DNA of 29,229 bases from the IMG/VR virus record IMGVR_UViG_3300025070_000160, positions 1 to 29,229 of that record. One strand, given 5' to 3'. Shown here piece by piece: positions 6,031 through 23,064 of the stretch. The stretch comes from a virus. The notes under the pieces are model-generated. The model saw only the letters and a program-made list of their open reading frames with translations. It made no database searches and had not been told where the DNA came from. Numbering within the stretch: the first letter of the stretch is position 1; each line of letters starts with the position of its first letter. The translations under genes were made by a program, and so were the position numbers.

Positions 6031-6062
6031 TTTTGTTAATAACTTAGAAAGAGTTATATTAG
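6031..6062 (+). promoter_or_regulatory. host-type promoter before 6090
   Basis: TTTTG (6031-6035) is followed after 19 nt by TATATTAG (6055-6062), one mismatch from the Bacteroidetes -7 element TAnnTTTG. The predicted start near 6069 gives a leader of about 20 nt. A related element at 10270 shares TTGTTAATAA and ATTAGC. Confidence 0.6.
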
Positions 6063-8330: not shown

Positions 8331-8341
8331 AATTTAATTTA

Positions 8342-8361
8342 TTTTTCGATATATAGATATA
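8342..8361 (+). promoter_or_regulatory. CGATATAT-type promoter ahead of the terminase genes
   Basis: TTTTTCGATATATAGATATA, with the C at 8347. The same core as the four copies that touch an ATG, but here the downstream position reads ATA instead of ATG, and the gene starts 48 nt after the C. If transcription starts 12 nt after the C, the leader is about 36 nt. The leader contains aattaattaatt and no other gene. Confidence 0.6.
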
Positions 8362-8394
8362 CAAAAGATTAATTAATTAATTTATATTAATTCT

Positions 8395-8643
8395 ATGGAT
8401 GGTAGAAAAAACAATGGTGGACATTCAACAAAAGGTAGAGCAGGTAGAAAACCTAAGCAAGAGGAAGTACAACTAATAGAGAAACTTACTCCCTTAGAAC
8501 CTTTAGCATTTGAAGCTCTAAAAGATGGCTTAGAGAAAAAGGACTTTAAGTTTGTTCAGCTTTACTATAATTACTTTGCAGGTAAACCAAAAGAAACAAA
8601 GGATATAACTATAAACGAAGATGTACCTTTATTCATTGATTAA
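8395..8643 (+). CDS. terS: terminase small subunit (short form)
   Basis: 82 aa. The product starts with a Gly/Lys-rich segment (NNGGHSTKGRAGRKPKQEE) whose GR-x-G-R-K-P element is the AT-hook-like start common to small terminase subunits. KLTPLEPLAFEALKDGLEK and FVQLYYNYFAGKPKE then form the helical core, and an acidic tail follows. It is shorter than typical (120-180 aa), but the immediately following gene is the large subunit with TAATG overlap. It should recognise phage DNA and recruit the large subunit. Confidence 0.8.
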   Translation: MDGRKNNGGHSTKGRAGRKPKQEEVQLIEKLTPLEPLAFEALKDGLEKKDFKFVQLYYNYFAGKPKETKDITINEDVPLFID

Positions 8644-9812
8644 TGTTTACAAAAACAGAAGCAGTAATAAAACTTAGAGAATTAGGTAGTAGAATAAGAA
8701 TAGTAAGAGGAGGTTCTTCTGCAGGTAAGACTGTAGCTATTCTAATGATACTTATTGACTATGCTATTAAAAACAATAACAAAGAAATTAGTGTAGTAGC
8801 AGAATCTGTCCCACACTTGCGTAGAGGAGCTTTAAAGGACTTTCTTAATATACTTAAACAAACCAATAGGTATGATGAGAGAAAGTTCAACAAGTCAACT
8901 CTAAAGTACCAATTCAGCACAGGTTCTTATATAGAGTTTTTCTCCACAGATCAACCTGACAAATTAAGAGGAGCAAGAAGAACAGACTTGTTTATTAATG
9001 AGTGTAATAACATTCCTAGCTTTGAGGTGTATCAACAACTTGCAGTAAGAACATCAGGAACGGTGTGGTTAGATTACAATCCAAGTAACATCTTCTGGGT
9101 AGATAAAGAACTAATAGGACAAGAAGATACTGACTTCCTAACATTAACATATAAAGACAATGACAGCTTACCATCTTCAATAGTAAAAGAAATAGAGAAA
9201 GCTAAAGTAAAAGCTAAGACATCTACTTACTGGGCTAATTGGTGGAAAGTATATGGACTAGGAGAGATAGGTAGCTTAGAGGGAGTATGTATTCCTGATT
9301 GGAAGTACATTGATAGTATTCCTTATGAAGCTAGGTTATTATGTGGAGGATTAGATTTTGGATATAGCATAGACCCTAGTACGATTATATTATTATACAA
9401 ATGGAACAATGCTTACATTTATGATGAGATACTATATCAAAAAGGAATGCTTAATAGAGACATAAGTAGATTTCTAAAAGACAATAGTATAACTACTCAT
9501 CTATGGGCAGACTCAGCAGAACCTAAGAGTATTAGTGAGATCAGAGCTTATGGTCATAAAATATCAGGAGTAACTAAAGGGAGAGATTCAGTAGTCTATG
9601 GTATTAACCTAATAAATCAAAATGAAATCTATGTAACCTCCAGGTCTAAGAATCTAATCAAAGAACTACAAGGATATATATGGGCAAAGGATAAAGAAGG
9701 TAATAACATACAGAAACCTACAGGAACTCATCCTGACTGTATAGATGCAGCTCGATATTGTTTAATGATGCAGTTAGAGAATCCTAATAGAGGTAGATAT
9801 ACTATTCAGTAG
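8643..9812 (+). CDS. terL: terminase large subunit (ATPase-nuclease packaging motor)
   Basis: 389 aa. Walker A is GGSSAGKT (residues 23-30). The Walker B region is LFINECNN, with the catalytic Glu. LDYNPSN is the coupling motif. The C-terminal RNase H-like nuclease has LDFGYSIDP (first Asp), WADSAEPKS (second Asp) and HPDCIDAARY (third Asp). The lead-in RIRIVRGGSSAGKT is typical of phages that begin directly with the ATPase. The length is compact (usual 420-550 aa), but all motor and nuclease residues are present. It drives DNA translocation into the prohead and cuts concatemers. The start overlaps the small subunit stop by one base. Confidence 0.93.
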   Translation: MFTKTEAVIKLRELGSRIRIVRGGSSAGKTVAILMILIDYAIKNNNKEISVVAESVPHLRRGALKDFLNILKQTNRYDERKFNKSTLKYQFSTGSYIEFFSTDQPDKLRGARRTDLFINECNNIPSFEVYQQLAVRTSGTVWLDYNPSNIFWVDKELIGQEDTDFLTLTYKDNDSLPSSIVKEIEKAKVKAKTSTYWANWWKVYGLGEIGSLEGVCIPDWKYIDSIPYEARLLCGGLDFGYSIDPSTIILLYKWNNAYIYDEILYQKGMLNRDISRFLKDNSITTHLWADSAEPKSISEIRAYGHKISGVTKGRDSVVYGINLINQNEIYVTSRSKNLIKELQGYIWAKDKEGNNIQKPTGTHPDCIDAARYCLMMQLENPNRGRYTIQ

Positions 9813-9826
9813 ATAAAGCGAATTTA

Positions 9827-9852
9827 TTGTTCGTATTGCGATTCTATGTTTG
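9827..9852 (+). promoter_or_regulatory. host-type promoter candidate after the terminase
   Basis: TATGTTTG (9845-9852) matches TAnnTTTG exactly. A TTG (9827-9829) lies 15 nt upstream, somewhat short of the usual 17-23. It would start RNA near 9858, about 18 nt before the ATA-initiated frame at 9876. Confidence 0.45.
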
Positions 9853-9875
9853 TGTTATAATAAGCCATAAGGCAC

Positions 9876-10169
9876 ATAACTAAAAAACTAGAAACTTTCG
9901 AAACATTAATCCAAGATTACACAGAACAAGGAAAAGCTGATTTAATAGATTTTATTATGTCAGACAAAGAAGCATTATCTCACTTAAAATTATTATTAAT
10001 AGAAACTGATAATGACTTACTAGAATACAGATATAATTGGTTTGCTAATTATATTGAATATCAAAACGACTTAAATGGGAATCAAGATGAAATACTTTTT
10101 TATAATCTTAAAAGGTTTTTATTTGAATTTGTAGAAGCTAAGAAGTTATTAGATAAAAACTTAGATTAA
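9876..10169 (+). CDS. hypothetical acidic helical protein, probable ATA start
   Basis: The ATG at 9957 gives 70 aa, but the same frame is open back to the TAA at 9861-9863 and codes for protein-like sequence with no ATG, GTG or TTG. From ATA 9876 it reads ITKKLETFETLIQDYTEQ, then GKADLIDFIM, joining smoothly to SDKEALSHLKLLLIETDND. I therefore list 97 aa with a non-canonical ATA start. The product is rich in Leu, Asp, Glu and aromatic residues (YRYNWFANYIEYQND) and looks like a helical bundle. It heads the block containing the tRNA. The function is not recognised; ATG 9957 remains the conservative start. Confidence 0.6.
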   Translation: MTKKLETFETLIQDYTEQGKADLIDFIMSDKEALSHLKLLLIETDNDLLEYRYNWFANYIEYQNDLNGNQDEILFYNLKRFLFEFVEAKKLLDKNLD

Positions 10170-10176
10170 ATTAAAT

Positions 10177-10249
10177 GCGAGATAGAGCAGTTGGTCAGCT
10201 CGTTAGGCTCATAACCTAAAGGTCGGAGGTTCGAATCCTCCTCTCGCAA
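10177..10249 (+). tRNA. tRNA with CAT anticodon (Met, possibly Ile2)
   Basis: A 73-nt cloverleaf. The acceptor TGCGAGA pairs with TCTCGCA (all seven pairs, T1:A72 at the end), the D arm is GAGC/GCTC, the anticodon stem is TTAGG/CCTAA with loop CTCATAA (anticodon CAT), the variable loop is AGGTC, and the T arm is GGAGG/CCTCC with TTCGAAT. The discriminator is A and CCA is not encoded (CTA follows). The stem lacks the three G:C pairs of initiator tRNA, so it is an elongator Met, or Ile2 if the host TilS modifies the anticodon. It lies inside an all-plus block of small genes. Confidence 0.93.
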
Positions 10250-10269
10250 CTAAAAATATTTATTAAAAA

Positions 10270-10302
10270 TTGTTAATAATATAAATAATTGTTGTAGATT
10301 AG
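10270..10302 (+). promoter_or_regulatory. promoter-like element between tRNA and 10307
   Basis: TTGTTAATAA (10270-10279), with TAGATTAG at 10295-10302 (spacer 22). It resembles the promoter at 6031 in both parts. The second box ends only 4 nt before the ATG, so a transcript from it would have almost no leader. Confidence 0.45.
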
Positions 10303-10306
10303 CTGT

Positions 10307-10474
10307 ATGAAACAAAACGATATAACAAATTTACCTAATCAACAAACATTCAATACTTGGAGTAATGATGAGCTTTTTAATTATTACTATAATTTATTAA
10401 ATGAACCTAACAATGTTAATAATGCAATTTCTAAAATAGTAAGAAAAGTTTTAGATGCAAGAAATTATAAGTAA
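10307..10474 (+). CDS. hypothetical protein, 55 aa
   Basis: From ATG just after the promoter-like element to TAA 10472-10474. The product is Asn-rich in the N-terminal half (MKQNDITNLPNQQTFNTW), then SNDELFNYYYNLLNEP and a short basic helix (AISKIVRKVLDARNYK). It is polar, without Cys or a membrane segment, and followed closely by further microgenes. The function is not recognised. Confidence 0.6.
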   Translation: MKQNDITNLPNQQTFNTWSNDELFNYYYNLLNEPNNVNNAISKIVRKVLDARNYK

Positions 10475-10475
10475 A

Positions 10476-10589
10476 ATGAAACAAGCTGATAAAAAACTAA
10501 TAAAGACATTACTAAAGCTCCACAACAAAAAAGAAATATCTGCTAAGACTTGTGCAGATACAATCTTCAGAATCATAAAGAATCAATGA
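10476..10589 (+). CDS. small basic protein, 37 aa
   Basis: Starts one base after the previous stop and ends TGA 10587-10589, overlapping the next ATG. The product is lysine-rich and helical (MKQADKKLIKTLLKLHNKKE, then ISAKTCADTIFRIIKNQ). Tight coupling on both sides supports it. The function is not recognised; its charge suggests nucleic-acid contact. Confidence 0.55.
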   Translation: MKQADKKLIKTLLKLHNKKEISAKTCADTIFRIIKNQ

Positions 10590-10693
10590 AAGATATATAT
10601 GTAAAAAAGATAACTGCAAGTGCTTTAGAAATGCCTGTAGAAAAAAGAAAACAATTAATAATAGAATTAACTAAATCATTACTAAAGAAATAA
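10586..10693 (+). CDS. small helical protein, 35 aa
   Basis: Coupled by ATGA to the preceding microgene. The product MKDIYVKKITASALEMPVEK continues with a Lys/Leu/Ile-rich amphipathic helix ending SLLKK. It is a regular helix with a proline break near residue 17. The role is unknown. Confidence 0.52.
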   Translation: MKDIYVKKITASALEMPVEKRKQLIIELTKSLLKK

Positions 10694-10695
10694 TT

Positions 10696-10800
10696 ATGTA
10701 TAAGAAATTCCTAAAACAAGACCCAAACAATTGGAAATGGCTAATAGCTATCCACGTTTTTTTATTTACAATATGTTTAATCTTAATGATTGATTTATAA
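10696..10800 (+). CDS. single-pass membrane microprotein, 34 aa
   Basis: ATG two bases after the previous stop; TAA overlaps the next ATG (TAATG). A polar N-terminus (MYKKFLKQDPNNWKW) leads into one hydrophobic segment (LIAIHVFLFTICLILMI), so it is an inner-membrane peptide with the N-terminus inside. It is a second early-type membrane microprotein besides 6632-6760, without clear similarity to it. Confidence 0.6.
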   Translation: MYKKFLKQDPNNWKWLIAIHVFLFTICLILMIDL

Positions 10801-11057
10801 TGAAAAGAATAACAAATATAATAGAAGTTGAATGTGAGAACTTTATGTTAGATGTAAAATATTGGTATAAAAAACTTAATGAACAAGAAGATGAAGTGGA
10901 CATTAAAAGAGTTTATATTAAGACTTATACAACAGAAGACAATGATGTTATTGTTATAAATAAAAGGCTATTACCTGCATCTGGTAATGAACTTCCTTCA
11001 TCTTGGGAAGAAATAATAGTACAAGAAATATCTAATGATATAGAAAATTTTATTTAA
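10800..11057 (+). CDS. hypothetical acidic protein, 85 aa
   Basis: Coupled by TAATG to the membrane microprotein. The product alternates beta-like stretches (RITNIIEVECENFMLDV; IKRVYIKTYTTEDNDVIVIN) with an acidic C-terminal helix (SSWEEIIVQEISNDIENFI). It is the last gene of the tRNA block, followed by a strong terminator. The function is not recognised. Confidence 0.68.
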   Translation: MKRITNIIEVECENFMLDVKYWYKKLNEQEDEVDIKRVYIKTYTTEDNDVIVINKRLLPASGNELPSSWEEIIVQEISNDIENFI

Positions 11058-11089
11058 TAATTAAGTAAAGGTTGTTTTGTTTGGAAAGG

Positions 11090-11117
11090 GGGTAGCAGAA
11101 ATGTTACCCTTTTTTTT
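11090..11117 (+). terminator. Rho-independent terminator after the tRNA block
   Basis: GGGTAGC (11090-11096) pairs with GTTACCC (11103-11109) through one G:T, loop AGAAAT, followed by eight T. It separates the accessory block from the tail module; the CGATATAT promoter begins 31 nt after the T run. Confidence 0.9.
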
Positions 11118-11147
11118 GTGTATATGTCAAAAATGCTTCTAAAATTT

Positions 11148-11159
11148 CGATATATATAT
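11148..11159 (+). promoter_or_regulatory. CGATATAT-type promoter of the tail module
   Basis: CGATATATATAT directly before ATG 11160, preceded by AAATTT. One of four copies with exactly 12 nt from C to A of ATG. An AT-rich box ending about 4 nt before the start codon predicts RNA beginning at or within a few bases of the ATG. Confidence 0.65.
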
Positions 11160-11810
11160 ATGAAAGTAGAAATAAACGTGCCTAATGATTTAAAAGAAAT
11201 CAAGCTGCACCAATATCAGAAGTTCCTAAAGCTCCAAGAAAAGAGTGTAGATGAAAAGTTCTTAGCTTCTAAGATGATAGAAGTCTTCTGTGGTTTAAAG
11301 CTAACAGATGCTCTTAAAATGAAAGTAGCAGATGTCTATGCTATTACAGGAATACTTGGAGATATGTTCAATCAGAAACCTAAGCTAGTAAAGAAGTTCA
11401 AAATGAATGGGGTAGAATATGGATTCATACCAGACTTAGATCAGATGAGTTTAGGAGAATACATTGACCTGGACACTTACTTAGGGGATTGGGAAAATAT
11501 CCATAGAGCTATGAATGTTCTATATAGACCTATCAAACATAAGTATTCAGAAAAATACAATATAGAGGAGTATAACATAGACCATCCAGAGAAGATGCAA
11601 AATATGCCAATGGATGCAGTATTGAGTTCTGTGCTTTTTTTTTATCATTTAGGAATCGACTTGTCGAAAGCTATGATGAATTATTTGGAGGACAAACAGG
11701 AAACGAATTTAGTGCAATATCTCAATTCGGAACTAAATGGGGATGGTATCAATCAATTTACGGACTCGCTCAGGGAGATATTAGACGATTTGAAGATATC
11801 ACTAAGTTAA
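11160..11810 (+). CDS. tail assembly chaperone, zero-frame (G-like) product
   Basis: 216 aa from ATG 11160. ATG or GTG codons upstream in frame would lie inside or before the promoter, so they are rejected. The product begins MKVEINVPNDLKEIKLHQYQ, has a helical body (SKMIEVFCGLKLTDALKM, then VADVYAITGILGDMF), a beta-hairpin (FKMNGVEYGFIPDLDQM), and ends FTDSLREILDDLKISLS. It is the first gene of the tail module and precedes tail completion and tape-measure genes, as expected for a chaperone that coats the tape measure. A second frame overlaps its last 55 codons and can only be reached by a -1 shift. Confidence 0.72.
   Translation: MKVEINVPNDLKEIKLHQYQKFLKLQEKSVDEKFLASKMIEVFCGLKLTDALKMKVADVYAITGILGDMFNQKPKLVKKFKMNGVEYGFIPDLDQMSLGEYIDLDTYLGDWENIHRAMNVLYRPIKHKYSEKYNIEEYNIDHPEKMQNMPMDAVLSSVLFFYHLGIDLSKAMMNYLEDKQETNLVQYLNSELNGDGINQFTDSLREILDDLKISLS
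11636..11642 (+). promoter_or_regulatory. slippery heptamer for -1 frameshift (T7 within a T9 run)
   Basis: The run C-T9-A at 11634-11644 contains the zero-frame codons TTT TTT preceded by T, a perfect X-XXY-YYZ heptamer. A -1 slip puts ribosomes in the frame coding the conserved-looking GT-like segment. RNA polymerase slippage on the nine T is an alternative route. No obvious strong downstream stem was seen by eye. Confidence 0.7.
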
Positions 11811-11896
11811 AGTTGCACGAGTGCTTTATGATGTTATCATTTATGAAAGACAAAGCAGAAGCAGAAGCTAAACAATTAAAAAGTAAAATAAAATGA
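11642..11896 (+). CDS. tail assembly chaperone, -1 frame (GT-like) extension
   Basis: 84 codons in the -1 frame, open from 11576 to TGA 11894-11896 but with no ATG, GTG or TTG before its last 30 codons, so it needs the frameshift. Read after the slip it gives VLFF then LSFRNRLVESYDELFGGQTG, continuing FGTKWGWYQSIYGLAQGDIR and RFEDITKLKLHECFMMLSFM, ending in a charged helix. The W-G-W-Y, L-A-x-G-D and E-x-x-x-K elements are those of the T part of lambda-type G-T chaperones. The fused product would be 245 aa (161 + 84). The stop overlaps the next start (ATGA). Confidence 0.75.
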   Translation, partial: LSFRNRLVESYDELFGGQTGNEFSAISQFGTKWGWYQSIYGLAQGDIRRFEDITKLKLHECFMMLSFMKDKAEAEAKQLKSKIK

Positions 11897-12366
11897 GTCA
11901 ACAAGGAATAAGAGGTTTTTATCAATTAACAGAAACAATTAAAACACAGTTGTTAGATGATGCAAACGTCAATATTGTAACTACTGGAGATATAACAGAA
12001 ATAGATTTATCTAAGCAAACTATATTTCCTCTATGTCATATTATGGTTAATAGTGTAAGTACACAAGAACAGGTACTAGCATTTAATATAACTGTTATGG
12101 CTATGGATATAGTAGATGTAGAGAAAGAAGCTACTACAGATTTATTTAGAGGTAATGATAACCAACACGATATACTAAACACTCAACTAGCAGTTTTAAA
12201 TAAACTTGTTATGGTTCTTAGAAAAGGAGACTTATATACGACTAAATACCAATTAGAAGGAGACCCTACCTGTGAACCTTTCTTTGATAGATTTGAGAAT
12301 CAGTTAGCAGGGTGGGCTTGTACTATGGATATTCTTATAGAAAACGATATCACTATATGCAACTAA
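11893..12366 (+). CDS. tail completion / tail terminator-like protein
   Basis: 157 aa. The opening GIRGFYQLTETIKTQLLDD, then beta strands (NIVTTGDITEIDL; LCHIMVNSVSTQEQVLAFNI), a helix (LNTQLAVLNKLVMVL) and a final beta part (AGWACTMDILIEND) fit the alpha/beta layout of tail terminator (gpU-like) proteins. The position after the chaperone and before an HK97 gp10-like protein supports a tail-end role. Coupled by ATGA upstream. The family assignment rests on layout, not motifs. Confidence 0.55.
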   Translation: MSQQGIRGFYQLTETIKTQLLDDANVNIVTTGDITEIDLSKQTIFPLCHIMVNSVSTQEQVLAFNITVMAMDIVDVEKEATTDLFRGNDNQHDILNTQLAVLNKLVMVLRKGDLYTTKYQLEGDPTCEPFFDRFENQLAGWACTMDILIENDITICN

Positions 12367-12845
12367 AAGAAACTAAAAACATATTGAATAAGTTTGCTAA
12401 GTATGTGATACAACAATCTCGTAGTAATCTTACAAAGAATAAAAAGAATAGTACTAAAGCACTTTACAATAGTTTAGATTTTAAGTATAAGACAGTTAAT
12501 GGAGGAATAGGCATACAGTTTCTTATGGATGAGTATGGCTTGTATCAAGACAAAGGGGTTAGTGGAAAGAAAAAGAAATATAATACTCCTTTTAGTTATA
12601 AAGATAAAATGCCTCCTAGTTCTGCATTAGATAAATGGAGTGTTAGAAAAGGTATAGCTCCAAGAGACAAGAGTGGAAAGTTCATACCTAGAAAATCTAT
12701 AAACTTCTTAATAGCAAGAAGCATATACAATAAAGGAATCAAACCAAGTCTATTTTTTACTAAACCATTTGAAAAGGCTTATAAAGATTTACCAAAAGAT
12801 TTAGTTAAAGGATTTATAAACGATATAGAAATAACAATAGAATGA
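12357..12845 (+). CDS. HK97 gp10-like head-tail / tail completion protein
   Basis: 162 aa from ATG 12357 (MQLKETKNILNKFAKYVIQQ); an ATG at 12312 is in frame but lies deep in the preceding gene. YGLYQDKGVSGKKKKYNTPF, then MPPSSALDKWSVRKGIAPRD, IPRKSINFLIARSIYNKGI and KPSLFFTKPF resemble gp10-type proteins, which have a helical start, a long basic loop and a closing 'I-a-r-s-I-y-x-k-G-i-x-p-x-x-F-f' motif. The preferred start is preceded by CGATATCACTAT, a degenerate copy of the late promoter at the same spacing, though this codes within the upstream gene. Confidence 0.62.
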   Translation: MQLKETKNILNKFAKYVIQQSRSNLTKNKKNSTKALYNSLDFKYKTVNGGIGIQFLMDEYGLYQDKGVSGKKKKYNTPFSYKDKMPPSSALDKWSVRKGIAPRDKSGKFIPRKSINFLIARSIYNKGIKPSLFFTKPFEKAYKDLPKDLVKGFINDIEITIE

Positions 12846-14203
12846 GTACAATAATAAATGCAAGAAGTCCATATTATATAAAAGTAGAACCTGCTTCAGG
12901 TACACTTAGTTCTGCATCAATGCAACTATTTATATATTCAGGAACTTTTACAACAGACAAACCTGGAACTCCACAATACACTATAAGCAAAGATATTATA
13001 GGTTCTAACAATTATGTTATATATGAGATCACAGAGCTTATTAGAGATTATCTAAACACAGAGTATGCTAGTTTTGCTACAGATGGAGTATGGGTAGAAG
13101 CAGATATCACATTAACTAAAACATCAGGAAGTGAAACACAAAACTTAGATTATCTTTCTTTTGATGGTTATGGATATTTTGAAGATGGAGTAAATCCAAG
13201 AACTTTAATAGACCCAGTAAACACTTTAGTAGATTCAACAACTACAGGTACGACTACAGCTTATAAACTAATAGATAGTGGTCAAACATTCTTAACAAGT
13301 GTAGCAATAGGAGATACAGTTTACAATGATACAGATACAACAGAAACAACAATAACAGCTATAGATAGTAACACACAACTTTCTATAAAGAATGATATAA
13401 TGGCTACAGGAGAAGATTATAGAATAGTAGGAACTCCTAACTATACTCCACAATATCTGCAATCAAATAATAAGATATATTTTAAACAAGGTACTGATAT
13501 AGTGTTTCCTGTATTTGCTGAAGTTGCACCATTAATAGAATTTACAACAGGTGGAGGAGCTAATGTATTTTGGGAAGAAGTAGAAAACTTTTGGAACTTA
13601 TATGATGTAAGTTGGGGAAGCACACTAAATGACATACAGGTAAGCGATTCTACAAACTCTACACAAAAGATAGTCTATATTAGAGTAACTCCTACTGACT
13701 CTTTAATAACAGGAGATACAATTACTATAACAAGCTCAGTAGGTACTTCACAAGTAACAACAATTACACTAGAAGCAGTATGTGAACCTAAGTATCAAGA
13801 ATTACAAGTTATATTTTATAATAAGTTTGGAGCATTACAGATTATGCCTTTCTATAAAAAGTCAGTAGATAGTATAAACACAAATTCAGATAGTTATAAA
13901 AGAAACCTAATGGAGTTTGCTACTGACCCTACATACAATACTGAGAAACATCAAATAAGACAGTTTCACGTTACAGGTAAAGAAGCAATAACAATGAATA
14001 CAGGCTTTATACAAGAGAGTTTTAACGAGGTTATAAAACAAATGATGCTAAGTGAACAAGTGTGGGTAGATAATGGCACAGAGGTTCTCCCAATCACTTT
14101 AAACACTAAGAGTTTACAATTTAAGAAATCAGTAAATGACAAGCTCATAAATTACACAGTAGATTTCGAGTATGCGTTTAATAAAATAAATGACATTAGA
14201 TAA
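12842..14203 (+). CDS. tail structural protein with inserted beta module
   Basis: 453 aa. The N-terminal 120 residues (IINARSPYYIKVEPASGTLS and onward) and residues from about 300 (YQELQVIFYNKFGALQIMPF) form the body. The C-terminal 100 residues contain FHVTGKEAITMNTGFIQESF and the closing SLQFKKSVNDKLINYTVDFE. Residues about 129-195 (LIDSGQTFLTSVAIGDTVYN; NDIMATGEDYRIVG) are a Thr/Asp/Ala-rich beta module of a type that recurs in phage surface proteins and looks inserted. It lies between tail completion genes and the larger hub-like gene, so it is probably part of the distal tail. Which part is uncertain. Confidence 0.7.
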   Translation: MSTIINARSPYYIKVEPASGTLSSASMQLFIYSGTFTTDKPGTPQYTISKDIIGSNNYVIYEITELIRDYLNTEYASFATDGVWVEADITLTKTSGSETQNLDYLSFDGYGYFEDGVNPRTLIDPVNTLVDSTTTGTTTAYKLIDSGQTFLTSVAIGDTVYNDTDTTETTITAIDSNTQLSIKNDIMATGEDYRIVGTPNYTPQYLQSNNKIYFKQGTDIVFPVFAEVAPLIEFTTGGGANVFWEEVENFWNLYDVSWGSTLNDIQVSDSTNSTQKIVYIRVTPTDSLITGDTITITSSVGTSQVTTITLEAVCEPKYQELQVIFYNKFGALQIMPFYKKSVDSINTNSDSYKRNLMEFATDPTYNTEKHQIRQFHVTGKEAITMNTGFIQESFNEVIKQMMLSEQVWVDNGTEVLPITLNTKSLQFKKSVNDKLINYTVDFEYAFNKINDIR

Positions 14204-16278: not shown

Positions 16279-16421
16279 TACAAAACATTTTAGAATTACT
16301 CCAAATAGTAAAAGGAGATACAGAAAATATAAAAATAGCTCAAGGTAAGTATAAACTTCCTGAAACATTTAGTGAAACATTTAAACAAATAAAAACAGAA
16401 ATAAAATGGCTCAAAAAGTAA
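16275..16421 (+). CDS. small helical protein upstream of the tape measure, 48 aa
   Basis: ATG overlaps the hub-like stop (ATGA) and TAA 16419-16421 lies inside the tape-measure start (16-nt overlap). The product is MIQNILELLQIVKGDTENIK, then IAQGKYKLPETFSETFKQIK and a basic end. The double overlap and a coherent amphipathic pattern support it. It may assist tape-measure folding or tail-tip assembly, inferred from position only. Confidence 0.62.
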   Translation: MIQNILELLQIVKGDTENIKIAQGKYKLPETFSETFKQIKTEIKWLKK

Positions 16422-18190
16422 TAATAGATTTAGAAGCTAAAACAGATGCAGCAGTCAAAGAGATTGCTGACTTAAAGAAAGAAATAGAGAAACTAAATCA
16501 AGAAGTAGCATCAGGTAATAAAGATACTAAAGAAGGTTTAAAGGATGTAGAGAAAGCATCTGACAAAACTGCAGGGGGTATTAGAAAAATAGGAGGAGCA
16601 TTAAAAGCTGCAGGTATTGGTTTAGCTGTTGCTGCATTTGCTAAGTTTACTGAAATATTAAATCAGAACCAGAAAGTAGCAGATTTCTTCAATACTACAT
16701 TTGAAACTTTATCTATAGCATTTAATGACTTCTTTAATTTTATAGATAGTAATGCAGGAGTTATTATAGATTATTTTAAAGGTATATTTGAAGACCCAAT
16801 AGGTTCTTTAAAAGATTTTGGACAAGCAATTTTTGATAATGTAATAGAAAGAATAAAATCTTCTATAGATGCTTTAGGTTTCTTAGCAAGTGCAGTAGTA
16901 AAAGTTTTTCAAGGAGATTTTTCTGGAGCTATGGAATCTGCAAAGAGTGCAGGTAAAGAACTAATAGATGTAGTTACAGGAGTTGACAATACTTTTGAAA
17001 AAACAAATGAAGTTGTTTCAGAATATGTTAAGACAACTATAAAAGCTGCAAAGTCAAATGTAGAATTAGAAAAAAGTGCAAGACGTGCAGAAGCAGCTAA
17101 TCAAGGATTAATTGAAAAGTACGATAGACAGGCAGAGCAGTTAAGACAAATAAGAGACGATGAAAGTAAGAGTTTTGAAGAAAGAATAAAAGCTAATGAC
17201 GATTTGGGTATATTACTTGATGAGCAAGAAAAAACAATGAAAGAAAATGCTCAGGCAAGAGTAAATCAAGCTGCAGTTGAACTTGCTAAAAATAAAGAAA
17301 ATATTGATTTGCAAGTAGCATACCAAGAAGCATTAAATGAACAAGCTGCAATAGAAGCACAAATCACAGGGTTCAGAAGTGAACAACAAACAAATGTAAA
17401 TTCACTATTGCGAGAACAAAAAGACTTACAAAATGAATTAGCTCTTATTGGTAAAACAGAAAGAGAAATAGAACGAACAGAATTACAGCAAGACTATGAT
17501 GCTAAGAAGGCTTTGATAGAAAGAGAAATTTCAGATGAAGCAACAAAAAAAGAAATGTTAGCTAATCTTGAAAGTGATTATAATTCTAAAATAGCTGAAA
17601 TAGATGATGAGGCTTTTCAAGAGAAATTAGTAAAAGCAGAAAAAGAAAGAAACTTAGAGAAACAAAAGATTAGAGATAAGCAAATGGTAGTAGATGCCAT
17701 TAGTCAGTTTGCTGATGCAGAGTCAGGAATAGGTAAAGCATTACTTATAGCTAAACAAGCATTAGCATTACAAGAAACTTTATTAGATGTAAAAAGAATA
17801 ACTTTTAAAGGTTCACAGGCAATAGGAGAAGCAGGTGTTAATGCATCACAAAACGTTTCTGAAAGTAGTAAAATAGGATTTCCTCAAAACATTATTACTA
17901 TAGCAGCAGCTATTGCACAAGGTGTATCAATTATTAGAAGTGTTAAAAGTGCAGTAGGTAAAACAAAAGCACAGGCTTCATCAATGGCTTCATCATTTAC
18001 TCCAAGTGTAGATTCTCCTTCTTCAGCTCCACCTGCATTTAACGTAGTAGGAACTTCAGGAGCTAATCAATTAGCAGGTGCAATTGCATCACAACAACAA
18101 CAACCTGTTAAAGCATTTGTAGTAAGTAATGATGTAACAACTGCACAAGAGTTAGATAGAAATATTGTAAGTGGTGCAACTATAGGGTAA
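16406..18190 (+). CDS. tail tape measure protein
   Basis: 594 aa. The N-terminal coiled coil (AVKEIADLKKEIEKLNQEVA), a Gly/Ala hydrophobic segment at about 57-81 (IRKIGGALKAAGIGLAVAAF), a second hydrophobic region near 150-180, then a long charged coiled coil (about 225-430) and another hydrophobic helix near 494-510 (IITIAAAIAQGVSIIRSV) give the expected alternation of helix and membrane-active parts. The last 80 residues are Ser/Pro/Gln-rich and disordered. It sets tail length; by the usual rule of about 0.15 nm per residue this suggests a tail near 90 nm, an estimate only. It is last in the tail module. Confidence 0.88.
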   Translation: MAQKVIIDLEAKTDAAVKEIADLKKEIEKLNQEVASGNKDTKEGLKDVEKASDKTAGGIRKIGGALKAAGIGLAVAAFAKFTEILNQNQKVADFFNTTFETLSIAFNDFFNFIDSNAGVIIDYFKGIFEDPIGSLKDFGQAIFDNVIERIKSSIDALGFLASAVVKVFQGDFSGAMESAKSAGKELIDVVTGVDNTFEKTNEVVSEYVKTTIKAAKSNVELEKSARRAEAANQGLIEKYDRQAEQLRQIRDDESKSFEERIKANDDLGILLDEQEKTMKENAQARVNQAAVELAKNKENIDLQVAYQEALNEQAAIEAQITGFRSEQQTNVNSLLREQKDLQNELALIGKTEREIERTELQQDYDAKKALIEREISDEATKKEMLANLESDYNSKIAEIDDEAFQEKLVKAEKERNLEKQKIRDKQMVVDAISQFADAESGIGKALLIAKQALALQETLLDVKRITFKGSQAIGEAGVNASQNVSESSKIGFPQNIITIAAAIAQGVSIIRSVKSAVGKTKAQASSMASSFTPSVDSPSSAPPAFNVVGTSGANQLAGAIASQQQQPVKAFVVSNDVTTAQELDRNIVSGATIG

Positions 18191-18213
18191 AATACAAAAT
18201 ATTAATTTAAAAA

Positions 18214-18225
18214 CGATATATAAAT
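18214..18225 (+). promoter_or_regulatory. CGATATAT-type promoter of the capsid module
   Basis: CGATATATAAAT directly before ATG 18226; C-to-ATG spacing 12. The only full-consensus copy that also contains TATAAATA, which recalls T4 late promoters (no upstream box). Confidence 0.65.
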
Positions 18226-19416
18226 ATGAAAATAGTAGAACTTATTTTAGATGAAAATGAGGAGCTAAATGGAATTGAAGCAATAAGTATTGTAGAGAAT
18301 CCTGCAATAGAAGAAGACTTTGTTGCTTTAAAAAGTGATGAAATAAAACTAGCAGAGGTTAGCGAAGAAAAAAGAATCTTAATGGGAGCTTTATTAATCC
18401 CTAACAAACCTATATACAGAAGGAGTGGAGAGGATGAATATTATATATACTTCTCCAAAGATACGGTTTTAAAAGCATCCCAAATGTATTTAATGAAAGG
18501 CAACCAAAACAATTCAACTTTAGAGCATCAATATTCTCTAAATGGTTTGTCTTTAGTAGAAAGTTGGATAGTAGAAGATACTGTTCACGATAAATCCAGG
18601 AAGTATGATATGGAAGTTCCTGTAGGGACTTGGATGGGTACTGTTAAAGTAAACAATGAAGATGTTTGGAATGATTATGTAAAAACAGGTAAGGTTAAAG
18701 GATTTTCTATAGAAGGCTACTTTGTAGATAAAATGGAAAGACCTAAAGATGCTACTATAAACGACTTAGCTCAAATAGAGGAAGAAGAAGCTAAAGAATT
18801 GTTATCTACTATTAGGGGTATTATAAAAGGAGACAAAAGAACTAAAACTGGAAAGAAGATGGTAATGGAGTCTTATACAGACTATCCTGATGCAGTTAAG
18901 AATAATGCTAAAAAAGGCTTAGAACTCAATAAGAAAGTAAACAACAAATGTGCAACACAAGTTGGTAAGATCAGAGCAACACAACTTGCACAAGGAAAAC
19001 CAATAAGCAAAGAAACTATAAAGCGTATGTATTCTTATTTGTCAAGAGCAGAGGAATACTTTGAACCAAGTGATAATACTAAATGTGGGACTATAAGTTT
19101 CTACTTGTGGGGAGGACTAGCAGCAAAGAGATGGAGTGAGTCTAAATTAAAAGAATTAGAATTAGCTTCTATGAAAATAAATGAGGACTATGCTATAATA
19201 GATGATAGACTTGCATACTCTACAAAAGAGAAAGCTATAGAAGTATCTAAGGACATAGGGTGTAACTCTTACCACGAACACGAATACGAGGGTAAAGTAT
19301 GGTTTATGCCTTGTGAACAACACGAGCTTAAAAAACCTTGTCAAGCAGGATATGAGCAATATGGAATGAAAAGAAAGAATGGAAGATTAGTACCTAACTG
19401 TATACCAATCAAATAA
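18226..19416 (+). CDS. XkdF-like prohead protease with C-terminal extensions
   Basis: 396 aa. Residues 48-170 are the XkdF-type serine protease: RILMGALLIPNKPIYRRSGE, STLEHQYS with H101, ESWIVEDTVHDKSRKY, PVGTWMGTVKVNNEDVW, and GFSIEGYF with S161; H and S are the expected catalytic pair. Two extensions follow. Residues about 205-305 (ESYTDYPDAVKNNAKKGLEL, then RMYSYLSRAEEYFE) form an independent helical domain. The last 85 residues contain conserved Cys and His and end CQAGYEQYGMKRKNGRLVPN-CIPIK. It should mature the prohead during assembly. ALKSDEIKLAEV near residue 34 recurs in two later genes. Confidence 0.82.
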   Translation: MKIVELILDENEELNGIEAISIVENPAIEEDFVALKSDEIKLAEVSEEKRILMGALLIPNKPIYRRSGEDEYYIYFSKDTVLKASQMYLMKGNQNNSTLEHQYSLNGLSLVESWIVEDTVHDKSRKYDMEVPVGTWMGTVKVNNEDVWNDYVKTGKVKGFSIEGYFVDKMERPKDATINDLAQIEEEEAKELLSTIRGIIKGDKRTKTGKKMVMESYTDYPDAVKNNAKKGLELNKKVNNKCATQVGKIRATQLAQGKPISKETIKRMYSYLSRAEEYFEPSDNTKCGTISFYLWGGLAAKRWSESKLKELELASMKINEDYAIIDDRLAYSTKEKAIEVSKDIGCNSYHEHEYEGKVWFMPCEQHELKKPCQAGYEQYGMKRKNGRLVPNCIPIK

Positions 19417-19418
19417 AT

Positions 19419-19559
19419 ATGGAAGATACTACTCACAATGTAAGTCCACAAGGAGGAAACAGAGCTTGTCTTTGTTGGGATAAAGAAACTTATAGTATTA
19501 AATGCTGTGATGGTTCATTACACGCACAAGGAATAGGAAGTATAAATAGAAACTCATAA
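19419..19559 (+). CDS. small Cys-rich protein (CLC...CC), 46 aa
   Basis: From ATG two bases after the protease stop to TAA 19557-19559. GGNRACLCWDKETYSIKCC, then DGSLHAQGIGSI gives C-x-C and C-C groups with a His, a likely small metal-binding or disulphide knot. Small proteins with this C-x-C...CCDG-x-L-x-A-Q-G-I-G look recur in structural modules of marine Bacteroidetes phages, by my recollection, without known role. Its place between protease and scaffold suggests a capsid part. Confidence 0.7.
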   Translation: MEDTTHNVSPQGGNRACLCWDKETYSIKCCDGSLHAQGIGSINRNS

Positions 19560-19570
19560 AATATATAAAA

Positions 19571-19963
19571 ATGAATCCAATAAGTAAAAAAATTATTAAC
19601 AAATTATCTCAAGAAGATAAAACAGAATTAAAGTCAGAAAAAGTTGAACTCGCAATTTTAGATAATTTAAAAAAATATGCAAGTGGATTAAATAAATATC
19701 AAAATGAAGGAGATGGTTTAGTTAAAAGAGCAGACAGACTTAAAACTGAATTAGATGAAACACAGAAAGCAATTTATAAATGGTCAGATGTAGGCGAAAG
19801 TATAGCAAACGATATTGTAAAAGATTTATCTAAATTTGAAAAATCAGCAAAAGAATTAGGTATATCTCCAGGTTCAGTAAAAGAATATATTAATGCAGAA
19901 AAAGCATTCAAAGAATTTTCCAAATTAGAACAGAAATATCAAAAAATTGCAAAAGAATTATAA
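19571..19963 (+). CDS. coiled-coil capsid-module protein A (paralogue of 19978)
   Basis: 130 aa. The opening MNPISKKIINKLSQED, then ELKSEKVELAILDNL, is shared in form with the next gene. The rest is mainly helical coiled coil (VKRADRLKTELDETQKAI; KAFKEFSKLEQKYQKIAKEL), with one hydrophobic-poor Gly-Ile-Ser-Pro break near residue 95. It has no Cys. The position between protease and scaffold suggests a capsid-internal or assembly helper; the N-terminal peptide may target it to the prohead or be cut by the protease. A leader with ATATATAAAA precedes it, lacking the CG of the late motif. Confidence 0.65.
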   Translation: MNPISKKIINKLSQEDKTELKSEKVELAILDNLKKYASGLNKYQNEGDGLVKRADRLKTELDETQKAIYKWSDVGESIANDIVKDLSKFEKSAKELGISPGSVKEYINAEKAFKEFSKLEQKYQKIAKEL

Positions 19964-19977
19964 ATAATTATAAAACT

Positions 19978-20346
19978 ATGAATCCAAGAACATTAAAATC
20001 AGTTTATAATAAGATAAACAAACAAGAACTAAAATCTGAGAAGATTGAGTTAAATAAAATAGAAGATTTATTAAGCTCTTTGAGAAGAAGTGGAGAATAT
20101 GACGCGTTTGATGAATTAGCACAATTAAACAAATTTGCTCAAAGGATAGAAAATGGTATCAGAAAAAAGCAACAAAAATTAGATGAAGTAGAAAAAGAAG
20201 CATCACGATTAAGACAAAGCGTTAAAGAATTAGGACTTGACAGAGAATTAAAAGTATTAAACGATATTGATAACGATATAAAAGTAAACAGAAGCAATAT
20301 TAATAAAGTTTTAAAAATAGTTCAACAAGCTCAAATGAATGTTTAA
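19978..20346 (+). CDS. coiled-coil capsid-module protein B (paralogue of 19571)
   Basis: 122 aa. MNPRTLKSVYNKINKQ and ELKSEKIELNKIEDLL repeat the opening of the preceding gene, with the same order of N-terminal helix, ELKSEK-[VI]-EL, and long coiled coil (IRKKQQKLDEVEKEASRLRQ). SVKELGLD matches SAKELGIS in the paralogue. Total sequence similarity beyond these anchors is low, so the duplication is old. Same possible role as its neighbour. Confidence 0.65.
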   Translation: MNPRTLKSVYNKINKQELKSEKIELNKIEDLLSSLRRSGEYDAFDELAQLNKFAQRIENGIRKKQQKLDEVEKEASRLRQSVKELGLDRELKVLNDIDNDIKVNRSNINKVLKIVQQAQMNV

Positions 20347-20370
20347 AAATGCAAAATAATTAAATAAACT

Positions 20371-20382
20371 CGATATATTAAT
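20371..20382 (+). promoter_or_regulatory. CGATATAT-type promoter before the scaffold-capsid pair
   Basis: CGATATATTAAT directly before ATG 20383; C-to-ATG spacing 12. It gives the scaffold and major capsid genes their own start, besides any read-through from 18214. Confidence 0.65.
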
Positions 20383-21009
20383 ATGAAACCTATGGAAATG
20401 TTAAATCAAATCAAAAGCGTCTTGGGTGTAGAATTATCTACTGAAGAAATAGTAGAACTTGCTCAAGCTAAATTAGAAAATGGTACTGTTTTAGAAGCAG
20501 AATCATTCGAATCAGGAAAAGAAGTATTTATCTTAACTGATGATGACAAAGTAGCTTTACCTATTGGAGAGTACGAAATGGAAGATGGTAAAATCTTAGT
20601 AATAGCAGAAGATGGTATTATTTCAGAAATCAAAGAGGGTGGAGAAGAAGAAGTTGTGGAAGAAGAAGTAGTAGAGCAAGTAGAAGAAGAAGAACTAAAT
20701 GAAGAAGACAAATACGCAACTAAACAAGAACTTCAAGAAATCAAATCTATGGTAGAAGAAATCAAAGAATTGATGAAAGAAGGTAAGAAAGAAGAAATGC
20801 AAAAGGAAGAAGAATTAATGTCACAGAAAATGACAGAACTTGCTTGTCAAGAAGATGAAGTATTAAAAGAAGAATTATCTAAACCTGCTTCTGAACCTAT
20901 CAAGCATTCTCCTGAATCAAAGCAGGAATTAAATAAAGTTGTTTACTCTCAAAAGAGAAACTTAACAACAAAGGATATAGTATATAATAAAATAGCAAAT
21001 TTCAAATAA
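20383..21009 (+). CDS. probable capsid scaffold protein
   Basis: 208 aa. N-terminal MEMLNQIKSVLGVELSTEEI leads to a beta-rich acidic middle (FILTDDDKVALPIGEYEMED; KILVIAEDGIISEIKEGGEE), then an extended Glu stretch (about 85-105) and a coiled coil (KQELQEIKSMVEEIKELMKE), and ends in a basic tail (SQKRNLTTKDIVYNKIANFK). An acidic N-terminal two-thirds, a helical centre and a basic C-terminus directly before the capsid gene fit a scaffold that binds capsid subunits through its positive tail. No protease motif is present, so it is not a fused protease-scaffold. Confidence 0.72.
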   Translation: MKPMEMLNQIKSVLGVELSTEEIVELAQAKLENGTVLEAESFESGKEVFILTDDDKVALPIGEYEMEDGKILVIAEDGIISEIKEGGEEEVVEEEVVEQVEEEELNEEDKYATKQELQEIKSMVEEIKELMKEGKKEEMQKEEELMSQKMTELACQEDEVLKEELSKPASEPIKHSPESKQELNKVVYSQKRNLTTKDIVYNKIANFK

Positions 21010-21029
21010 AAATTAAATTAAATTAAATT
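21009..21029 (+). repeat. AAATT tandem repeat in the capsid leader
   Basis: Four consecutive aaatt-like units run up to the capsid ATG. The leader is A/T only and should be unstructured, which suits strong translation without a Shine-Dalgarno in Bacteroidetes. It may also be simple low complexity. Confidence 0.55.
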
Positions 21030-21980
21030 ATGGCAACTACAGTTTCAATTACAAGTACATATGCAGGTGAGTTTTCAGGGAAGTATATTTCTGCTGCTCT
21101 ATTAAGTTCTCCTACATTAGAAAAAGGTAACATCGAAATTAAACCTAACGTAAAGTTTAAAGATGTAATCAAAAAAGTAGCAACAGATGCTAACGTAATA
21201 AAAGATGCTTCGTGTGACTTTTCTGACACGGCAACGGTCACGTTGACAGAACGTATTCTACAACCAGAGCAATTTCAAGTAAACCTTGAGCTTTGTAAGC
21301 AAGACTTTATCTCAGATTGGGAGGCGATCTCAATGGGATATAGTTCTTTAAATGACCAATTACCTCCAAAGTTTTCTGATTTCTTAATCGGACACGTTGC
21401 AGGATTGGTAGCAGAAAAGAATGAGCAAAACATTTGGGGTGGTGTTAATGGTAACGCAGGAGAGTTTGATGGAATCACAGTATTAGCAGCAGCAGACGGA
21501 GATGTTAACGATGCAGCTAATGGTGGTGAAACTGCTTTCAGTTCAACTAACATTATCAGTTTATTAGAAAACGTAGTAGATTCACTTCCATCAGCAGTAT
21601 ATGGAAAAGAAGATTTAAAAATCTACGTTCCAACTATCGCTTGGCAATCATACATCAGACAATTAGGAGGATATGCTGCTAATGGTGTTGGTGGTTCAGG
21701 TGTTGATAACAGAGGTGGTTTATGGTACAATCAAGGTAATGCACTTTCTTTCGATGGAATCGAAGTTGTATTAGCTCCAGGTATGCCATCTAATCACATC
21801 GTAGCAGGACAAAAATCTAACATTTACTTTGGTACAGGTCTTTTATCTGACCACAACGAAGTTAAGTTATTAGATATGGCTGACCTAGATGGTTCTCAGA
21901 ACGTAAGAGTAGTAATGAGATTTTCAGCAGGTGTACAATATGGAATAGGAAGTGACCTATCTTTATTGACATTAGCATAA
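21030..21980 (+). CDS. major capsid protein, HK97 fold
   Basis: 316 aa. ATTVSITSTYAGEFSGKYIS opens the protein, then LSSPTLEKGNIEIKPNVKFK and DTATVTLTERILQPEQFQVN, QDFISDWEAISMGYSSLNDQ, a spine helix (NIISLLENVVDSLPSAVYGK), VPTIAWQSYIRQLGG, FDGIEVVLAPGMPSNHIVAG and the closing RVVMRFSAGVQYGIGSDL give the E-loop, spine helix and A-domain order of HK97-type capsids. Codon use includes more C-ending codons (aac, atc) than neighbouring genes, as expected for the most highly expressed protein. It follows the scaffold gene and precedes a hairpin terminator. Confidence 0.9.
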   Translation: MATTVSITSTYAGEFSGKYISAALLSSPTLEKGNIEIKPNVKFKDVIKKVATDANVIKDASCDFSDTATVTLTERILQPEQFQVNLELCKQDFISDWEAISMGYSSLNDQLPPKFSDFLIGHVAGLVAEKNEQNIWGGVNGNAGEFDGITVLAAADGDVNDAANGGETAFSSTNIISLLENVVDSLPSAVYGKEDLKIYVPTIAWQSYIRQLGGYAANGVGGSGVDNRGGLWYNQGNALSFDGIEVVLAPGMPSNHIVAGQKSNIYFGTGLLSDHNEVKLLDMADLDGSQNVRVVMRFSAGVQYGIGSDLSLLTLA

Positions 21981-21999
21981 TAAATTGTTTAACATAGAG

Positions 22000-22026
22000 G
22001 GGTAGGTGGGTTAAGCCTACTTACCC
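22000..22026 (+). terminator. hairpin after the capsid gene (partial terminator)
   Basis: An 11-bp stem, g22000-c22026 to g22010-c22016, with two G:T pairs and a 5-nt loop, followed by only TTTCTT. The poor T run suggests leaky termination, or an mRNA 3' stabiliser that favours capsid message over the tail tube gene, which starts 23 nt later and has no late promoter of its own. Confidence 0.75.
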
Positions 22027-22049
22027 TTTCTTATAAAAATTATAATAAT

Positions 22050-22592
22050 ATGGCTTGTACATTAACAACAGGAAGAAACATACCTTGTAAATCTTCTGTC
22101 GGTGGACTTAAAACAGTTTACTTTGCAGATTATGGTCTTACTGTTACTGACAATTCATCAGATGCAGAAAAAGTAGATATAGGAGGAACTCCTGACTTTT
22201 TTCAATACGACCTTAAAGGTAGTTCATCTATGGAGACAGCAGTAAACAGCTCAAGAGAAAATGGTACTACTTTCTTTGAATCAACTTTAAATATTTCGTT
22301 ACAATTATTAGATAGTAAAACACAAGAAGAATTAAAGATTATAGCTTTAGGACGTCCACAAATCGTAATAGAGGATTATAATGGTAATTTCTTTTTAATG
22401 GGTAGAGAACACGGATGTGAAGTATCTGGTGGCTCTTTCACAACAGGTGCAGCTATGGGAGATGCTTCGTCATTCTCTTTAACATTAACAGCTCAAGAAG
22501 TATCAGCTCCTGCATTCCTTGCAGATTCAACTGATGTAACTGATAATGTAAATGCAGCTAAGATTTCACCTGCTACTCCTAATAATGGATAA
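22050..22592 (+). CDS. major tail tube protein-like
   Basis: 180 aa. MACTLTTGRNIPCKSSVGGL, KTVYFADYGLTV, a long middle with FFQYDLKGSSSMETAVNSSR, then LGRPQIVIEDYNGNFFLMGR and GGSFTTGAAMGDASSFSLTL are consistent with the beta-barrel, N-arm and loop layout of tail tube proteins. It lies with the capsid genes rather than beside the tape measure, which is unusual. It could be another abundant structural protein, but the pattern and isolation between two terminator hairpins favour tube. Confidence 0.7.
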   Translation: MACTLTTGRNIPCKSSVGGLKTVYFADYGLTVTDNSSDAEKVDIGGTPDFFQYDLKGSSSMETAVNSSRENGTTFFESTLNISLQLLDSKTQEELKIIALGRPQIVIEDYNGNFFLMGREHGCEVSGGSFTTGAAMGDASSFSLTLTAQEVSAPAFLADSTDVTDNVNAAKISPATPNNG

Positions 22593-22614
22593 TAAATTAT
22601 TAAGTTAGAAAATT

Positions 22615-22642
22615 AAGGGGACTATATGTCCTCTTTTTTTTT
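22615..22642 (+). terminator. Rho-independent terminator after the tail tube gene
   Basis: GGGGAC (22617-22622) pairs with GTCCTC (22628-22633), one G:T, loop TATAT, then nine T, with extra A:T pairs at the base. The stem end lies 51 nt from the next ATG, the same as for the terminator at 11090. Confidence 0.88.
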
Positions 22643-22671
22643 GCATTTAACACAAAATATAGTTTTTTTTT

Positions 22672-22683
22672 CGATATATAAGT
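22672..22683 (+). promoter_or_regulatory. CGATATAT-type promoter of the portal module
   Basis: CGATATATAAGT directly before ATG 22684, preceded by nine T. C-to-ATG spacing 12. It restarts transcription right after the strong terminator at 22615-22642. Confidence 0.68.
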
Positions 22684-23064
22684 ATGAAGAAACTTACTAC
22701 AAGTGCATCATCTCAGACTATAAAGATTATACCAAGAAGTTATGTTACTTCTTCTACTACTTTAAAAGTAAGAGACGATTCATTAAATGAAGAATTTAGC
22801 TTTACAGTAACTCCATCTGTTGATGGTAATTATCTAAGTATTTCTAATGAATATACATCTTCAGGAAATTCAATATTAAAAGAGGGTAGAACTTATGACA
22901 TAGAGTTATTAGATACATCTTCTAATATAATATACAAAGACAAAGTATTTTGTACTGACCAAACTGTAGATCAATCAAGTAATGACTATTATTCAATCAA
23001 TGATGGTCAATATACATTTGATACTACAGCAGGTTCTCACGATAACGATTACATAATAATATGA
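22684..23064 (+). CDS. small beta-rich structural protein, 126 aa
   Basis: SSQTIKIIPRSYVTSSTTLK, NEEFSFTVTPSVDGNYLSIS, ILKEGRTYDIELLDTSSNII and YKDKVFCTDQTVDQSSNDYY alternate strands and turns in the way of small Ig-like or head-decoration and connector proteins. It is the first gene after the late promoter and overlaps the portal start by 4 nt. Its single Cys is in the VFCTDQT element. Decoration, head-completion or tail-associated roles are possible. Confidence 0.62.
   Translation: MKKLTTSASSQTIKIIPRSYVTSSTTLKVRDDSLNEEFSFTVTPSVDGNYLSISNEYTSSGNSILKEGRTYDIELLDTSSNIIYKDKVFCTDQTVDQSSNDYYSINDGQYTFDTTAGSHDNDYIII

Follow-up and report, generated by a model that had tools for sequence, protein, structure and literature searches.

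Bipartite elements abutting start codons in a flavobacterial phage are best read as late promoters of a phage-encoded ECF-type sigma factor

The window, as we call the whole 29,229-base stretch of viral DNA analysed here (positions 1 to 29,229 of IMG/VR record IMGVR_UViG_3300025070_000160, a record that is possibly incomplete), carries five copies of a two-part element, for which sequence comparison favours the role of late promoter of an extracytoplasmic function (ECF)-type sigma factor that the phage itself encodes (4365-4844). It is very probable that all five are late promoters read by the host core RNA polymerase together with this sigma factor, four of the resulting mRNAs being leaderless and that of the small terminase subunit carrying a leader. 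What was observed directly is a bipartite motif that stands in a fixed register with ATG in many phages, is coherent within genomes and covaries with the sigma factor.

The sequence CGATATAT occurs five times in the window, on the + strand only (at 8347, 11148, 18214, 20371 and 22672); dinucleotide shuffles (n = 100) gave a mean of 0.54 copies (sd 0.86) and none reached five. At four copies the C lies exactly 12 nt from the A of an ATG (11160, 18226, 20383 and 22684), whereas at 8347 the same offset holds ATA and the ATG, at 8395, comes 48 nt downstream. Both the fixed spacing and the deviating fifth copy ahead of the small terminase gene had been noted in an original prediction, made by a model from the sequence of the window, and both were confirmed. 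The same prediction held that the sites share no upstream box, and this was wrong: in 83 of 87 CGWTATAT-N4-ATG sites in related loci AAAA(T/C) begins 17-18 nt upstream of the C, and at that distance an AAAAT box is carried by all five window sites. The element is therefore bipartite, with the consensus (C/T)AAAAT - N12-13 - CGATATAT - N3 - T followed by ATG; counted from the A of ATG, the upstream box occupies -31 to -26 and CGATATAT occupies -12 to -5, and the five window sites have a spacer of 13 bp. The sites in the window are as follows (scores in bits are from the matrix described below).

8327 to 8333, + strand: upstream (-35-type) box CTAAAAT of the small-terminase promoter
8347 to 8354, + strand: -10-type box CGATATAT of the small-terminase promoter (23.1 bits; predicted RNA start 8359, the A of ATA)
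8359 to 8394, + strand: leader of the small-terminase mRNA, 36 nt, with a conserved palindrome (AATTAATTAATT / TTGATTAATCAA class)
11128 to 11134, + strand: upstream box CAAAAAT
11148 to 11155, + strand: -10-type box CGATATAT (22.3 bits; predicted RNA start the A of ATG 11160)
18194 to 18200, + strand: upstream box ACAAAAT
18214 to 18221, + strand: -10-type box CGATATAT (26.9 bits; predicted RNA start the A of ATG 18226)
20351 to 20357, + strand: upstream box GCAAAAT
20371 to 20378, + strand: -10-type box CGATATAT (23.2 bits; predicted RNA start the A of ATG 20383)
22652 to 22658, + strand: upstream box ACAAAAT
22672 to 22679, + strand: -10-type box CGATATAT (22.5 bits; predicted RNA start the A of ATG 22684)

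Relatives were retrieved from IMG/VR with the sigma-like open reading frame (ORF) 4365-4844 and with the portal as queries. Dereplicated and orthologue-based counts were used; undereplicated 6-mer enrichment at ATG offsets was swamped by repeated coding sequence. All 87 of the CGWTATAT-N4-ATG sites in these loci lay on the gene-oriented strand. A column profile of 29 dereplicated sites had A at -29 and -28 in every site, A at -30/-27 in 24/28 sites and T at -26 in 18, followed by a spacer of 13 nt rich in A and T and by C-12 G-11 (A or T)-10 T A T A T-5. T was also found at -1 in all 29, a position that had played no part in site selection.

The candidate reader of these promoters is encoded upstream of all of them:

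4365 to 4844, + strand: ECF-type sigma factor of the phage, 159 aa with sigma2 and sigma4, the protein proposed to read the five promoters

Its product has the features of an ECF sigma factor (sigma2 and sigma4 only, ~160-200 aa, ECF fold). An AlphaFold model has helices for sigma2 and sigma4, and a Foldseek search with this model gave ECF sigma factors or their complexes as the leading PDB hits (best E 3.4e-5). The protein also matched the sigma factor family phrog_1740 (E 5e-4); Pfam Sigma70_r2 matched weakly in 11 of 13 homologues (best E 2e-4), and the best hit in a profile search of PDB sequences, itself weak, was the ECF factor SigE (E 0.02). With region names assigned by analogy with ECF sigma factors, region 2.4 contains VDLIRK and region 4 the helix ISYYSLYNTY, and an alignment of the homologues showed a sigma2 core EDxVQxMY, DLxRK in region 2.4 and the same sigma4 helix. 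The sigma factor is also encoded in nine of the ten records longer than 22 kb in the portal set. A tblastn search for it in annotated phages gave no match, and a search of genome contigs gave no relatives.

The form of the -10 box followed the sigma factor from clade to clade. In 69 of 71 multi-site loci (matrix-scored sites) the same -10 base was present at all promoters of a genome. Promoters with CGATATAT (CGAT) accompany sigma factors with L(Y/W/H)(V/I)DL(I/L/M)RK, those with CGTTATA (CGTT) accompany (L/M/F)F(I/L)DL(K/C/Y)R(K/R), and those with TTATATAT (TTAT) accompany I(Y/F)(L/F)N(I/T)(Y/H)KK, so that where CG has become TT, DLxRK in region 2.4 has become N(I/T)(Y/H)KK. In the TTAT clade the sigma4 helix is unchanged, as is the upstream box CAAAAT, so the difference is confined to the region that would be predicted to face the altered box. 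This pairing was put to a forward test, in which the whole records of five portal loci were searched, their promoter type being known and their sigma factor unseen beforehand. Both TTAT records (L094 and L112) carried N..KK sigma factors and the three CGTT records (L091, L155 and L138) carried F(I)DLCRK, in each case as predicted.

Divergence of both boxes was found in two isolated phages of Nonlabens, P12024S and P12024L, whose portal is 38% identical to that of the window. These encode a protein annotated as Sigma-70 region 2, which is related to the window sigma factor by hhalign (E 6.5e-11) and differs from it in the sigma4 helix. Their promoters have the upstream box AAAACAAA (AAAACA...), a spacer, and then CGTTAATA, of the form CGTTA(A/C/T)TA; each phage has seven sites, with ATG at +12 in six and at +11 in one. 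The same promoter form was present in further IMG/VR relatives of the P12024 sigma factor, which by tblastn in annotated phages matched P12024 only. Thus both boxes have diverged along with both DNA-reading regions, and the distance to the ATG has not. Since both phages have been isolated, the proposed pairing of promoter and sigma factor is directly testable in them, and the natural pairs (CGAT, CGTT, TTAT and CGTTAATA) form a specificity series for dissecting -10 recognition by ECF-type sigma factors. Members of one sub-clade (L123, L124, L127, L131, L136, L138 and L140) have AGTTATAGTTAT before the 208-aa gene and CGTTATA(C/G)T before their other late genes, so that a single promoter in each genome shows a natural change of C to A at -12.

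These results bear on the possibility that a sigma factor of the host (an ECF factor or sigma-A), or the host holoenzyme with some other phage activator, reads the promoters, the sigma-like gene serving something else. The -12 to -5 register does equal that of the host -7 element (PMC6847099), but the boxes are unlike TTTG/TANNTTTG, the -10 type follows region 2.4 of the phage sigma factor across clades while the upstream box follows region 4, and nearly all of the long portal records encode the sigma factor. We consider a host reader improbable.

The position of the element relative to the genes was a further line of evidence. The genes that follow the promoters, and two hairpins that precede them, are these:

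8395 to 8643, + strand: putative small terminase subunit gene (phrog_38011, function unknown, and a position directly upstream of the large terminase)
8643 to 9812: large terminase (Pfam match)
11160 to 11810, + strand: 216-aa late protein (P216), first gene of the tail/structural block, whose homologues begin at the same ATG
18226 to 19416, + strand: head maturation protease (XkdF-like, Peptidase_S78_2; 8.2e-14)
20383 to 21009, + strand: scaffold-like protein, its function suggested by its position ahead of the putative major capsid gene (21030-21980)
22684 to 23064, + strand: 126-aa protein (gene overlapping the 5' end of the portal gene, 23061-24875)
11083 to 11116, + strand: terminator-type hairpin and T-run just upstream of the 11148 promoter (-17.7 kcal/mol, z -4.75)
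22615 to 22643, + strand: terminator-type hairpin and T-run upstream of the 22672 promoter

This gene content supports the earlier view that the sites precede packaging and structural genes. Across 159 related loci, ATG stood at exactly +12 in 39 of 105 occurrences of CGATATAT and 44 of 103 of CGTTATAT, and other offsets were low except for those of small-terminase orthologues. When sites were picked by the two boxes only and the ATG was ignored, it lay at +12 in 19 of 35, with at most five at any other offset and 0 of 5 on the reverse strand. Among 63 dereplicated matrix sites, 43 had a 0-nt leader (ATG at +12 from the C), four had the ATG 1-2 nt later and eight could not be assigned, the leadered sites being mostly those of the small terminase (leaders of 19-36 nt). 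By orthologue, the promoter was at the exact position for 69 of 71 copies of the 126-aa gene, 42 of 43 of the 208-aa gene, 22 of 26 of the protease (two of the remaining four being the Nonlabens variant) and 44 of 56 of the 216-aa gene; eight of the other 12 belonged to a Nonlabens-type clade with no promoter there.

Further upstream starts are in many cases closed off. The 47 near-zero-leader sites lacked any other in-frame start codon in 31 cases; in 24, an in-frame stop lay within 33 nt and hence inside the promoter, which leaves translation no start but the abutting ATG. Three of the window genes (ATGs 18226, 20383 and 22684) likewise have no alternative in-frame start, with stops at TAA 18208, TAA 20365 and TAG 22660, respectively. 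These genes have the hallmark of leaderless ones, a -10-type box about 12 nt before the start codon with no room for a leader, and because the signal ends exactly at the start codon, the mRNA probably begins with its own start codon. In flavobacteria the -7 element TANNTTTG occupies -12 to -5 and is followed by 4-5 nt to the RNA start (PMC6847099); CGATATAT plus 4 nt has the same geometry, which supports a +1 at the A of ATG. Leaderless transcription from these promoters is thus strongly supported by their sequence and register. Leaderless phage mRNAs as such are already known, phage transcripts having been described as 'often leaderless' (PMC5312081). Leaderless transcripts amount to 5.5% in F. 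psychrophilum (PMC9723704) and 87% of leaders in F. johnsoniae exceed 10 nt (PMC6847099), and with such mRNAs a minority in hosts of this kind, a late class that is nearly all leaderless would be unusual.

The same register could in principle reflect a translational or RNA-level signal, the mRNA starting further upstream and CGATATAT-N4 marking or enhancing the start codon in a host without Shine-Dalgarno sites. The motif abuts start codons in most cases, and Bacteroidetes do use start-site features other than Shine-Dalgarno sequences (PMC6847099), but the small-terminase genes have the same bipartite element 31-48 nt upstream, the upstream box stands at a promoter-like fixed distance, the terminator hairpins cut two of the sites off from the upstream genes, and a matrix scan of the window found the element confined to the first gene of each block, the genes inside the blocks being without it. 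This explanation is accordingly very unlikely.

The small-terminase leader, on the only late message with one, has features of its own. The palindrome TTGATTAATCAA or AATTAATTAATT is conserved in it (window 8359-8394; L002:15285, L021:14286, L043:8321, L048:14592), a third half-site lies just before the start codon, and from phage to phage the half-sites vary in concert. Possible roles are those of an operator, a packaging site or competing hairpins that cover the start codon.

The specificity of the element was examined with a 33-position matrix trained on the relatives, near-copies of the window sites being excluded. In the window, the five sites scored 22.3-26.9 bits and the sixth-best 9.7 bits, the best of 200 shuffled windows reaching 17.5. 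Over 2.17 Mb of related loci, the matrix found 211 sites on the gene-oriented strand versus 3 on the opposite strand. In a scan of all IMG/VR contigs with AAAATN{12,14}CGATATATNNNTATG, at least 120 stretches matched; in 112 newly fetched loci, among the matches listed, 149 of 157 matches opened an ORF of >=60 aa or ran off the contig, 142 had a spacer of 13 and 35 loci had 2-4 copies. A control pattern with CG swapped to GC matched 67 stretches in the whole collection, never more than one copy in each, 23 of which opened an ORF. The original prediction had proposed such a scan of the motif at start codons against controls in related flavophages, and its outcome was favourable. The window has ~31% G+C and the motif is A/T-rich, but an origin by chance or base composition is refuted by the shuffles, the CG-to-GC control, the strand asymmetry and the orthologue conservation, and its probability is negligible.

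Several points weigh against the interpretation of the elements as leaderless late promoters of the phage sigma factor. The model of the sigma factor has a pLDDT of 75 and a pTM of 0.47, and its Pfam matches are below the curated cut-off. In the sigma tree, the TTAT class arose once (support 100/100) and the five classes need five changes; the covariation therefore maps onto few events, and shared descent alone could link promoter and sigma types. ATG 11160 has in-frame ATGs at 11124 and 11133 that are usable instead, although many homologues, among them L043, L048 and L206, are without these extra ATGs. The distance between promoter element and RNA start is 6-9 nt in phages 7-11 and phiEco32 (PMC8948821); the same rule, applied from the last base of CGATATAT, would place +1 2-5 nt within the gene, so that the true +1 could differ by a few nt.

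By analogy, the flavophage system appears to work like the phage-sigma regulons of phiEco32 and 7-11. The middle/late promoters of phiEco32 and the late promoters of 7-11 are similarly read by host core with a phage sigma factor and form a small late set, and sigma factor and promoter diverge together between related phages (PMC8948821), as they did here in a few independent events. The phiEco32 promoters are a single element and those of 7-11 are bipartite, GTAAtg-16-aCTA (PMC8948821). The systems differ in motif, host phylum and sigma sequence, and the window promoter abuts the start codon, a leaderless arrangement that is unmentioned in PMC8948821.

The likeness to T4 late promoters in the original prediction extends to a T/A-rich box of 8 bp that lies roughly a helical turn before the start, and to a phage-encoded recognition subunit, gp55 (PMC2988020). 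T4 late promoters are without a -35 region and gp55 without a sigma4 domain (PMC2988020), whereas the window system has both an upstream box and a sigma4 domain, which covary; a T4-type late promoter was therefore rejected, the AAAAT box standing at a fixed distance at all five window sites and the candidate sigma factor having the conserved C-terminal helix ISYYSLYNTY at the sigma4 position. The prediction was thus right in proposing a distinct class of phage late promoter, with transcription abutting the start codon and a likely role for the phage sigma factor, but its single T4-like box gave way to a bipartite one.

ECF promoters usually have an upstream box of the AAC type. The phage promoters resemble them, including those of flavobacterial SM6 (CGT in the -10 box; PMC9723704), in the short two-domain sigma factor, the CG at the upstream end of the -10 box and the separate upstream box, and differ in that this box is AAAAT, 12-13 bp separate its end from the CG, TT replaces CG in one clade and the sigma factor is phage-encoded. 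No anti-sigma gene was noticed with the phage sigma factor. Bacteroidetes primary promoters (TTTG/TANNTTTG) likewise have an 8-bp downstream box at -12 to -5 and then 4-5 nt to the start (PMC6847099), but both box sequences differ and host transcripts are mostly leadered; a sigma-A promoter of this type (-7 TANNTTTG, -33 TTTG) was rejected, the boxes being (C/T)AAAAT and CGATATAT. The spacing also equals that of leaderless genes with a -10-like signal ~12 bp before the start codon (PMC3160421), which, in contrast to the one dedicated phage regulon with its own sigma factor in the window, are a host-wide statistical class.

In the mechanism that we propose, host sigma-A would read the early promoters and the phage sigma factor (4365-4844) would be made early or in mid-infection. 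Host core RNA polymerase with the phage sigma factor would then open the late promoters, region 4 contacting the upstream box and region 2 contacting CGATATAT, and transcription would begin a helical turn downstream, ~12 nt past the C, a position occupied by the A of ATG in four of the five cases. Ribosomes would start on the 5'-terminal AUG of the leaderless late mRNAs; the small terminase would be made from the same promoter with its 36-nt leader. Intrinsic-type terminators just ahead of at least two of the promoters would stop upstream transcription from entering the late operons. We infer sigma binding, the exact +1, late timing and leaderless translation, the terms 'late' and 'RNA starts at ATG' being drawn from gene content, register and conservation.

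More broadly, a large group of marine flavobacterial phages probably switches on the genes for building and packing the particle with a bipartite signal that varies with the phage's promoter-reading protein. It also seems likely that in a flavobacterial phage clade the late programme consists almost entirely of leaderless mRNAs, made through a phage ECF-type sigma factor with two DNA-reading regions that each evolved together with its own box in every late promoter of a genome, up to a complete replacement of CG by TT in the -10 boxes. No account of these promoters was found in a literature search limited to open-licence papers. The analysis gives an abundant group of marine Bacteroidetes phages a set of late promoters with a candidate reader, predicts that AUG stands at the very 5' end of their late mRNAs in hosts with few leaderless messages, and offers candidate orthogonal sigma/promoter parts for Bacteroidetes.

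A generic sigma-70 scan gave 89 promoter-like sites, fewer than in shuffles (104), and was uninformative. Candidates for host-type promoters were seen in the early/middle region, as TATGTTTG at 9845-9852 near a tRNA, with TTG 18 nt upstream, and before 6090 and 10307, as a TTGTTAATAA...TAnnTTAG pair (6055-6062 and 10295-10302). A tRNA-Met (CAT) gene lies between the terminase and the tail block (10176-10250); with leaderless AUG mRNAs predicted, it would deserve attention should it prove initiator-like. The small protein encoded just upstream of the small-terminase promoter (7908-8330) had no match in Pfam or PHROG; it contains the stretch NMHHANVLHLVRSF, which may resemble DnaA domain IV. Finally, 25443-29129 encodes a 1228-aa tail fibre-like protein with a C-terminal Peptidase_S74 self-cleaving chaperone domain.

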